Assembly (NCBI RefSeq): GCF_038967635.1
Contig: NZ_CP152413.1
Location: 3,844,001-3,908,000, forward strand
Direction of reading: 5' to 3'
DNA length: 64,000 bases
Source of the DNA: Bradyrhizobium sp. B124
Lineage (GTDB): Bacteria > Pseudomonadota > Alphaproteobacteria > Rhizobiales > Xanthobacteraceae
The position numbers were made by a program, and so were the translations under genes. The notes under the pieces are model-generated. The model did not search any database and had not been told where the DNA came from. It saw only the letters and a list, made by a program, of their open reading frames with translations. Below, piece after piece: positions 60,974 to 64,000 of this stretch; position 1 is the first letter of the stretch; each line of letters opens with the position of its first letter.

Positions 60974-61906
60974 CTAGCCCCACGGCCCGCGCTGGCCTGA
61001 GGCACCGCCCCAGGGGCTGCGCGGCGGATAGCTGGCGCCGGCCGGACGCGGCGCGGTCTGGGTGCCGAGTTCGGCGGCGAGCTGCTGCAGCGCGGCGATG
61101 CGGTTCGCGGTCGAGGGGTGGGTGGCGAACAGATTGTCGACACCGTGGCCCGACAGCGGGTTGACGATGAACATGTGCGCGGTGGCCGGATTGCGCTCGG
61201 CTTCCATGTTCGGCAACTGGTGCGCTGCGTTCTCGATCTTCGCGAGCGCGGATGCCAGCCACATCGGCTGGCCGACGATGCGTGCGCCGAAATTGTCGGC
61301 GGCGTATTCACGGGTGCGGCTGATCGCCATCTGCACAAGCATGGCGCCGAGCGGCGCCAGGATCATCATCGCGATCGAGCCGACGATGCCGGGGCCGTTG
61401 TTGTTGCGGTTGCCGCCGAAGAACATGCTGAACTGCGCCAGCATCGAGATCGCGCCGGCGATCGTCGCGGTGATCGTCATAGTCAGCGTGTCGTGGTGCT
61501 TGATATGCGCAAGCTCATGCGCGATCACGCCGGCGAGTTCCTCGCGGCTGAGCTGCTGCATCAAGCCAGTGGTGACGGCAACCGCGGCGTTCTCCGGATT
61601 GCGGCCGGTCGCGAATGCGTTCGGCTGCGCCTCGTCCATCACGAACACGCGGGGCATCGGCAGGCTCGCGCGCTGCGCGAGCTCGGCGACGAGATTGTAG
61701 AGGTCCGGCGCCGAACGCGCATCGACCTGACGGGCACCGTACATCGACAGCACCATGCGGTCGGAATTCCAGTAGGTGAACAGATTTGTCGCAGCCGCGA
61801 CGATCAGCGCGATCACGGCGCCGGTGCCGCCGCCGATCAGATAGCCGACGCCCATGAACAGCGCAGTGAGGCCGGCAAGCAGGAGCGCGGTGCGGAAATA
61901 ATTCAT
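60974..61906 (-). CDS. htpX: Membrane zinc metalloprotease HtpX
   Basis: 310 residues from the ATG at 61906. Two N-terminal membrane segments ('[21 protein letters not shown]', '[18 protein letters not shown]') are followed by '[33 protein letters not shown]' and the catalytic HELAH in '[17 protein letters not shown]'; Glu in '[15 protein letters not shown]' is the third zinc ligand. It degrades misfolded membrane proteins with FtsH. The tail '[25 protein letters not shown]' is a short Pro/Gly run. Confidence 0.96.
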
Positions 61907-62044
61907 CGTGGTTCCCTCACGGCGAGCGGAATGCTGCCACAACTGACGCCGCTGAGGTAGGGATTTTGCCGCGGAAGCCGCAAGGGGAAGGTGTGCGTCG
62001 CAGCGACGCGGCGTGGGTTAACGATTGGTCATGTGACGCGATCG

Positions 62045-62131
62045 GTAGCCCGGATGGAGCGAAGCGAAATCCGGGACTATCTCACCGCGGAGAAACTGCC
62101 CCGGATTGCGCTTCGCTCCATCCGGGCTACG
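62045..62131. repeat. Family A extragenic palindrome, copy 3
   Basis: GTAGCCCGGATGGAGCGAAG and CTTCGCTCCATCCGGGCTAC: perfect 20-bp arms. It lies directly after the hybrid kinase gene and upstream of htpX. Confidence 0.92.
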
Positions 62132-62141
62132 AAGTTGCGAA

Positions 62142-63794
62142 TTACTCCGCCGGCTCCCGCGCGATCACCGCCTCCTCCGCGCGCAGCGCGACCCGCAGCA
62201 TGCGGGCGAGTTGGGCGCGGCTATAGGGCTTGGCCAGGAACAGAATGCCCTGCTCGAGCTTGCCGTCCTGGTCGATGGCGTCATCGGTGTAGCCCGAGGT
62301 GAACAACACGCGCAAGCCGGGGCGCCGCCGCTCGGCCTCGGTGGCCAGCTCGCGTCCGTTCATCGCACCGGGCATGATGACATCCGTGAACAACAGATCG
62401 ACCGGCGCGCCGCTGTCGAGCACGGCAAGCGCTTCGCCGCCATTATTTGCCGACAGCGTGGTGTAGCCGAGGCTCTCGATCTGGGTCAGCACGTAGGAGC
62501 GCACCAGTCTGTCATCCTCGACGACGAGCACGATCTCCTGCGCGCCGCGCACCTCCGGCTGCCGCCGCTCGGGTAGCACGGCCGGCGAGAGCACCGCCGC
62601 GCGCGGCAGATAGAGCATCACCCTTGTACCGCGACCGACCTCGCTGTCGAGCGCGATGTGGCCGTTGGACTGCTTGACAAAGCCGTAGACCATGGAAAGC
62701 CCTAGGCCGGTGCCCTTGCCGACGTCCTTGGTGGTGAAGAACGGCTCGAACACTTTGGCGAGATCGGCTTCCGCGATGCCCTGGCCGTTGTCGATCAGCG
62801 CGATCGCGACATAGTCGCCGGCGGCAAGTCCGTCATGGCCGTGCACGTCTGATGGCTTCAGTTCGGCAGTGCGGGTCTCGATCCGCAGCCGGCCGCCCTT
62901 CGGCATCGCATCGCGCGCGTTCAGCGCGAGATTGATGATCGTGGTGACCAGCTGGTTGGAATCGACCAGCGCGCGCGGCAGATCGGGTGCGGGGCGAAAA
63001 TCGATATCGACATGGTCGCCGATGGTCGGCCGGAGCAGCTCGATGGTGTCGACCATCAGCGCATTGACGTCGACATCGCTCGGCTGCAGCGGCTGCTTGC
63101 GCGCGAAGGCGAGCAGATGCCGCGTCAGCGATGCACCGCGCTCGGCAGCGTCGCGGATCAGACTGGTGATCTCGGTGAGTTGGCGGTTGTGGGCGACCGC
63201 CTCGGCCAGGATGTCGATGGTGCCGGTGATGACGGTAGGGATGTTGTTGAAGTCGTGCGCGATGCCGCCGGTGAGCTGGCCGACCGCTTCCATCTTCTGC
63301 GCCTGGCGGATCCTGCTCTCGTTGACCTCGGCCTCGCGGAAACGCTCGAGCAGGACTTCCGAGCGCTGGCGCTGCCGGCCCTCCTCGGCGAGCGCGACAT
63401 GGGCCTCGCGCAGCTGCGCCTCGGTCGGGATCGCCAGGATTTTCGGGATCAGCGGCCAGAGCAGCACCGCGGTGAAGATCGAGGCGACAGCAGTGAGCGC
63501 CTTGACTATTCCTTCGAGCCCGTAGATCGGCACCCACAGCGTGTAGATCGAGAACACATGGGTGAGGCCGCAGGCGAGGATGAACGCGGCGAACGGCCAG
63601 GCCATCCAGCCGAACTGGAAGTCGCGCCGCTTGGAGACGAGGATCGCCAGCGCAAACGGAATCGAGAAATACGAAGCGGCAATGATCGCGTCTGAAATCA
63701 CGTGCAGCCAGATCAGCTCCGGCTCCCACAACAGGCAGATGCCGTGTGGCGAAAACGTCGACGAATCCAACAGACGCTCGAGAAAACTCCACAC
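62142..63794 (-). CDS. Hybrid histidine kinase with ethylene-receptor-like membrane domain
   Basis: 550 residues from a GTG at 63794 (GGAGG 5 nt upstream; the longer GTG at 63827 would add 11 residues). The membrane domain (about 25-125, three helices) carries '[14 protein letters not shown]' and '[12 protein letters not shown]', which align with the ethylene-binding domain of plant ETR1: Asp35, Tyr42, Ile45, Pro46, Ile72, Cys75 and His79 here equal D25, Y32, I35, P36, I62, C65 and H69, all at the same spacing. A coiled linker leads to the kinase (phosphoacceptor His180 in 'GGIAHDFNN', N box '[11 protein letters not shown]', '[11 protein letters not shown]'). The C-terminal receiver (421-550) has Asp471 and Lys522. 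It probably senses ethylene or a copper-bound ligand. Confidence 0.9.
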
Positions 63795-63940
63795 GGGTCC
63801 CTCCGGGCGTGATCGATCCGCCGACACCCCTGCCCGCGAATCACCCGCCGATCATAGCGGCGGCTCTTCAACCTGCCGAAGCCCAATTGGTCTAACAGGG
63901 CACCCCCGTTGTTGCCCGGTGTCGCCCTGGTGTATGCAGG

Positions 63941-64000
63941 ATGGACCTTGATCCCCCTTTCCCAGCCGGTGACATCGATGCCAGCTTCTCCCCTCCGCGC
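63941..64000 (+). CDS. Possible start of a gene running off the right edge
   Basis: From the ATG at 63941 an open frame of 20 codons (MDLDPPFPAGDIDASFSPPR) continues to the end of the window. It is transcribed away from the hybrid kinase. Length is too short for any family call and no clear ribosome site is seen, so this is tentative. Confidence 0.3.
   Translation, partial: MDLDPPFPAGDIDASFSPPR

Follow-up and report, generated by a model that had tools for sequence, protein, structure and literature searches.

A candidate ETR1-type ethylene receptor kinase in Bradyrhizobium, and the intact and dismantled copies of its sensor domain across the genus

The hybrid histidine kinase gene at 62142..63794, on the minus strand of the window (the whole 64,000-nucleotide stretch of DNA analyzed herein), probably encodes an ETR1-type ethylene receptor located in the membrane, as judged from sequence comparison. 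We describe below its ethylene-binding domain (EBD), the residues of the putative site, its architecture, its conservation, and its locus. Putative ethylene receptors are reported from many plant-associated proteobacteria (PMC11819568) and from many proteobacteria and cyanobacteria (PMC7700396); hence, the kinase adds a further member to a receptor family that has already been described in bacteria. In the open literature, we found neither a report of an ethylene receptor nor a test of ethylene sensing in Bradyrhizobium, and an earlier mention elsewhere is possible. A preliminary description of this DNA, made from the sequence alone, did not foresee how common this family would prove among Bradyrhizobium genomes, the tested relative in Azospirillum, or the odd proline at position 186 of the kinase. 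The dismantled paralogs and the form lacking an ATPase domain, which are presented below, are among the less expected results.

Gene, architecture, and the putative ethylene-binding site

Read from the GTG at 63794, the gene encodes 550 aa followed by a stop codon. An alternative in-frame GTG at 63827 would yield a kinase of 561 aa, and the database copy of the same protein (P0003) is 542 aa long, starting further in than 63794. The start at 63794 is the best supported of these, because the near-identical ortholog P0002, which is 550 aa long, and several related loci have a Met at the equivalent position, and because most of the listed relatives (the best 120 of 1127 protein relatives) are close to 550 aa in length. 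All of the organism-named proteins among these best 120 are from Bradyrhizobium, and the listed ETR1_N-family relatives include proteins named B. elkanii; these names agree with the earlier view that the genome is Bradyrhizobium-like. A nodA is also present. The genome itself consists of one contig of 9,169,800 bases and holds a single ETR1_N match, whereas none of 14 control genomes has any.

Profile searches with Pfam matched the N-terminal part of the kinase to ETR1_N (PF25487) at E=1.9e-37 (127.8 bits versus a cut-off of 27). HATPase_c (E=1.6e-20) and Response_reg (E=1.2e-15) were both over their cut-offs, HisKA (E=5.3e-05) was under its own (23.6 bits versus 26.9), and no GAF or PAS domain was matched in the kinase at E<=0.001. 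The architecture originally proposed, a HisKA-type kinase with a C-terminal receiver and no GAF domain, therefore stands, with HisKA as a sub-threshold match. Since no GAF domain lies between sensor and kinase, we place the protein outside the plant receptor subfamily. Specifically, all on the minus strand, the ETR1_N ethylene-binding domain spans residues 26-122 (63429..63719), being delimited by Pfam, the genome match, AlphaFold2 secondary structure, and hydropathy, and contains three predicted membrane helices. It is followed by the DHp/HisKA domain (63093..63281, from the sub-threshold Pfam match), with the phospho-acceptor His180 at 63255-63257 and Pro186 at 63237-63239, and by the HATPase_c catalytic domain (62598..62963), recognized by Pfam and by the reading of its N, G1, F, and G2 motifs. 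The C-terminal receiver domain (62196..62531; Pfam) has its expected phospho-acceptor, Asp471, at 62382-62384. The motifs usually named the H, N, G1, F, and G2 boxes, as well as the receiver Asp, are all present.

Aligned with plant ETR1, the residues Asp35, Tyr42, Ile45, Pro46, Ile72, Cys75, and His79 correspond to D25, Y32, I35, P36, I62, C65, and H69, respectively, which upholds the constant offset of +10 claimed for them at the outset. The reference used was P0123 from Noccaea, which is 99% identical over residues 1-135 to Arabidopsis ETR1. We take the seven plant positions to be those that ETR1 is known to require. Seven residues are reported as required for ethylene binding in AtETR1 (Carlew et al., PMC11819568). 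Both helix motifs quoted in the preliminary description (ISD-x6-YFSIP and F-x2-FI-x2-CG-x-TH) occur in the kinase and in plant ETR1, and the assignment of the kinase's first three helices to the ETR1 type is confirmed by the ETR1_N match and by the three helices of the structural model. Asp35, Tyr42, Ile45, and Pro46 lie in helix 1 (63657..63692, minus strand), while Ile72, Cys75, and His79 lie in helix 2 (63558..63581, minus strand), where the Cys and His are the expected Cu(I) ligands; the copper ligands in ETR1 are described as a Cys and a His (PMC13012798). In helix 3, Lys98 (63501..63503, minus strand) is the equivalent, by alignment, of ETR1 Lys91, and a salt bridge between a conserved Asp and a conserved Lys of ETR1 has been proposed from an AlphaFold model (reviewed in PMC13012798).

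The seven site residues and Lys98 are invariant across 50 aligned proteins, namely the kinase and relatives 35-97% identical to it. Further, all seven residues are intact in 359 of 361 proteins, comprising the results of three similarity searches and the kinase itself, a set that favors intact relatives, having been found nearly entirely by similarity to intact queries. A PHG-x-C-L-x-W motif ahead of helix 1 (63726-63749) is also invariant in the 50-protein alignment, and its Cys perhaps forms a dimer disulphide. We considered whether this motif (Cys20) might supply a second metal site as part of the ethylene site and rejected the idea, because 27 of 30 degenerate paralogs (see below) retain Cys20.

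AlphaFold2, run with the 50-row alignment, returned a model with a mean pLDDT of 74.9 and a pTM of 0.41, in which helices occupy residues 25-55, 62-87, and 91-112, and in which blocks of residues 21-120 have pLDDT values of 71-89. On each of these predicted helices, the site residues fall on one face, deviating by at most 56 degrees from the face that is conserved. The conservation moment reached significance for helix 1 (p=0.006) and helix 3 (0/5000 shuffles), and it was not significant for helix 2 (p=0.32). Cys75 and His79 stand as i and i+4 on one predicted helix. A sequence search at E<=1 yielded no solved ethylene-binding domain, and the best 50 of 1422 matches in a fold search were kinases or their complexes, with ShkA (6qrj) first and a CckA-type kinase second.

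Likeness to known receptors and the setting of the gene

A tblastn search of 72,556 plasmid records, 19 of which matched at E<=1e-5, connected the kinase to a gene on ABSP7_p1 of A. brasilense Sp7, with 58.2% identity over 110 aa (E=7e-36). AzoEtr1, a protein of 525 aa, is encoded on this plasmid, and its residues 1-130 are reported to show saturable binding of radiolabelled ethylene (PMC11819568). In our Pfam analysis, the AzoEtr1 locus encodes EBD-PAS-HisKA-HATPase_c, in agreement with the published account (PMC11819568). The two proteins are alike in their ETR1_N domains (58% identical), in the seven site residues (DYIPICH), in possessing HisKA and HATPase_c, and in coming from plant-associated alphaproteobacteria. 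Unlike the kinase described here, which lacks a PAS domain and carries its own receiver at the C-terminus, AzoEtr1 contains a PAS domain, and the end of its gene is overlapped by that of a separate response regulator.

SynEtr1 (slr1212) of Synechocystis is likewise a bacterial protein that joins an ethylene-binding domain to a histidine kinase (PMC11819568, PMC7700396), a likeness drawn from its description rather than its sequence, but it is reported to signal to a separate regulator (PMC11819568). A cyanobacterial relative from Kovacikia (L140) has the same seven residues. Plant ETR1 shares with the kinase a three-helix domain (37% identical), with its seven residues at +10, and the combination of a histidine kinase with a C-terminal receiver; plant receptors, however, carry PF01590, which we take to be GAF, and the kinase has none. 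The output of the plant receptors is described as running through the Ser/Thr kinase CTR1 (PMC11819568, PMC13012798). CckA-type hybrid kinases are similar in the transmitter, 5idj being the best solved structure by sequence (E=1.1e-45), but the sensor domain is unmatched in them, and a cell-cycle role is not implied for the kinase. In a whole-protein search of named genomes, the domain was present in only one of the 80 loci listed (L058), with the rest being mostly kinase relatives. Among plasmid-borne genes, an EBD kinase with all seven residues intact was seen in Rhizobium sp. 32-5/1 (L139), from a nodule of Vicia cracca.

The kinase gene is flanked on its 3' side by a Peptidase_M48 gene (60974..61942, minus strand; Pfam), presumably HtpX-like, and on its other side by a divergent SLT_2 transglycosylase gene (Pfam), which we assume to be MltB-like, that starts at 63909..64000 on the plus strand and continues beyond the window. 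The SLT_2 gene adjoins the kinase gene in all 16 window-type loci examined (L171-L185, L058), and an M48 peptidase gene lies within ~1 kb in 13 of them. These loci were chosen by frame length, along with four of other types, which have none of eleven flanking genes in common, bar one 27% match. The SLT_2 adjacency in these 16 loci, and the different surroundings of the other types, thus indicate that the window-type copy has been inherited at a fixed place. Across 16 loci (L170-L185, including the kinase gene itself), the mean pairwise dN/dS is 0.096 for 110 codons of the domain and 0.134 for 270 codons after it; the gene is under purifying selection.

By Pfam, the ten neighboring genes encode HTH/ScfRs, trypsin-like, SnoaL-like, aldo-keto reductase, M48 peptidase, SLT_2 transglycosylase, DUF1993, short-chain dehydrogenase, NADH:flavin oxidoreductase, and MarR proteins, with no response regulator and no obvious ethylene or symbiosis protein among the ten. 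Between the kinase and M48 genes lies a long palindrome (62045-62130; the fold of 62030-62145 has -75.5 kcal/mol and a z of -12.5), which is a dispersed palindromic repeat, with its 22-base arm occurring exactly 42 times in the genome, in some cases as inverted pairs. The window contains no tRNAs and no RNA families at gathering scores.

Distribution and variants of the sensor domain in the genus

Of 265 Bradyrhizobium genomes searched by profile, 181 have an ETR1_N match. Outside the genus, it was found in 16/114 genomes of a family sample (21/119 less 5 same-genus genomes), in 34/288 of an order sample (42/297 before removal of nine same-genus genomes, eight of which matched), where 5 of the 34 were under the family cut-off, and in 26/383 of a class sample (28/385 less 2 same-genus genomes). 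Same-genus genomes without a match were counted among those listed, nearest kin first. Compared with the family, order, and class samples, the genus has odds ratios of 13, 16, and 30, respectively, uncorrected for genome size and kinship.

The site reads DYIPICH in 149 of the 150 distinct high-scoring copies from the genus that were read among the matches listed (153 rows, with three copies appearing twice). A 685-codon-type copy in one genome (G212; L188, L320) has its copper Cys changed to Ser in a site that is otherwise intact. When a low-scoring paralog served as the query, by contrast, each of the 30 best matches had Tyr replaced by Phe, Ile by Thr, and Pro by Ala; in these degenerate paralogs of the same clade (L190-L219), the His is replaced by Arg in 29 and by Ser in one, while the Asp is kept in 30/30 and the Cys in 28/30. 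Hence, the site residues appear to be mostly either kept or dismantled as a unit in the genus, given 149 intact copies of 150 versus joint loss in 30 of 30. The frames of the degenerate paralogs are open, at 533 to 601 codons, and one member of the clade, L047, keeps HisKA, HATPase_c, and the receiver (Pfam). In six of them (L212, L213, L215-L217, L219), which share a 533-codon frame, a TAG falls inside the matched stretch, possibly just ahead of where the protein actually begins. A quick tree built from 94 domains and 133 columns, in which 46 of 91 inner branches were left open, split off the 28 distinct degenerate rows at a support of 100, on a long stem (0.89), and placed the kinase in a 15-row intact group, also at a support of 100. 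In one other genus of the same family (g10), four relatives (L054-L057) consistently carry the site EFILLSH and form another dismantled group.

The sensor domain also occurs in a variety of architectures. Among ten relatives analyzed with Pfam, the EBD was joined to PAS-HisKA-HATPase-REC, to HisKA-HATPase-REC, and to other kinases, and in L028, an intact EBD is followed by HisKA-REC, with no HATPase_c match. In five species (G176, G037, G020, G133, and G107; L321-L325), chosen for frames of 364-396 codons, the EBD, DHp, and REC match within one frame. In all five, the phospho-acceptor His, the receiver Asp, and the seven site residues are kept, and a search of 2.4-2.6 kb at each locus with the ATPase domain of the kinase gave no match at E<=1e-3 (5/5). 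Three other loci (L011, L019, and L022) have an intact ethylene domain with the kinase part wholly or partly in another frame; these are broken genes or sequence errors.

Proposed signaling, alternative readings, and significance

Copper, ethylene binding, the sign of the effect, and the output are what we infer for the kinase in the following model. The three N-terminal helices would hold Cu(I) through Cys75 and His79, and ethylene diffusing through the membrane would bind this copper, with Asp35, Tyr42, Ile45, Pro46, and Ile72 lining the pocket; its binding would alter the helix bundle. If the kinase behaves like ETR1, SynEtr1, and AzoEtr1 as modeled in the literature (PMC11819568), ethylene would then lower the autophosphorylation of His180. 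Phosphate would pass from His180 to the kinase's own receiver, at Asp471, and the next acceptor would probably be a phosphotransfer protein or regulator encoded elsewhere in the genome.

An alternative is that the main signal of the domain is Cu(I), or another small olefin or gas, with ethylene being incidental. The choice of ligand cannot be read from a sequence, and many species retain degenerate family members that lack the site, which means that the scaffold can be put to other uses; yet the non-metal Asp, Tyr, Ile, Pro, and Ile are all kept here and are identical to those of the ethylene binder AzoEtr1, which makes such a reading unlikely. A different concern is the transmitter, as the kinase of this particular strain could be impaired by Pro186, such that the sensor is intact and signaling is lost here while the orthologs signal. 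Pro186 stands six residues after His180, at a position occupied by Leu in at least 90% of the 50 aligned proteins. Among the best 120 of 1127 relatives, it is found in one of 118 proteins with the HDFNN motif, namely the kinase itself (P0003), with Leu or Met in the other 117, and it is found in two of 100 motif-bearing loci, both of which are records of the same gene (L001, L170). Pro186 may reflect a weakness peculiar to this strain or an error in sequencing, and its proximity to His180, together with the HisKA score under the Pfam cut-off, renders kinase activity in this strain doubtful. However, the reading frame is uninterrupted, nothing is missing from the other catalytic boxes or the receiver, a Pro close after the H-box occurs in some kinases, and the loci of relatives include HELRTP and HDLRTP, with the Pro one place earlier; on balance, we regard outright loss of signaling here as quite unlikely.

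The preliminary description had also stressed a particular link to nodulation, which the distribution of the domain did not bear out. A receptor devoted to host ethylene during infection would fit a genome that matches both NodA and ACC deaminase (the latter at 1.8e-175); these matches make plant ethylene relevant to the bacterium, which is probably legume-nodulating. NodA was matched in 163 of the 265 genus genomes (160 over the Pfam cut-off), including this one, and 24 of the matches were weak (9.8e-7 or worse, versus 2.9e-84 or better for the others), with 21 of the 24 over the Pfam cut-off. With weak matches counted as absent, 98 genomes had both ETR1_N and NodA, 83 only ETR1_N, 41 only NodA, and 43 neither (Fisher p=0.43), so that the comparison of nodulating and non-nodulating strains called for earlier gave 98/139 nodA-positive genomes (71%) versus 83/126 nodA-negative genomes (66%), uncorrected for kinship, and no association. 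With weak matches counted as present, the corresponding table was 116/65/47/37, or 116/163 (71%) versus 65/102 (64%; p=0.22), and when the 34 genomes with their best ETR1_N match in the weak band were dropped, it was 84/63/55/63 (p=0.11). All three tables lean slightly toward nodulators, and none is significant. Membership among the symbiosis genes is accordingly not supported, as occurrence shows no significant tie to nodA over the 265 genomes. In addition, the gene sits beside peptidase and transglycosylase genes, more than 4 Mb from nodA, and ACC deaminase is near-universal in the genus anyway, being over the cut-off in 232/265 genomes (matches occur in 6 of the 14 control genomes, all of them under the cut-off). 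A nodulation-specific role is therefore improbable.

Beyond the reading of the kinase as an ETR1-type ethylene receptor, which we favor, it is conceivable, albeit tentatively, that the genus maintains a repertoire built on one EBD scaffold. Such a repertoire might consist of intact receptors with full kinases, receptors with a complete site but lacking an ATPase domain, and a clade of kinases that lost the copper/ethylene site in a single event while their other parts were retained for another input, with ethylene sensing being a general root-and-soil trait rather than a nodulation trait. If so, the form lacking an ATPase domain would have to take phosphate from a partner or act only as a phosphatase or relay; it would be an unusual receptor output, and the degenerate paralogs are natural negative controls. 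Ethylene is reported to restrain nodulation (PMC13291814), and ACC deaminase, which is able to lower ethylene, is near-universal in the genus. A candidate receptor that is well conserved in this agriculturally important genus makes bacterial ethylene sensing testable.
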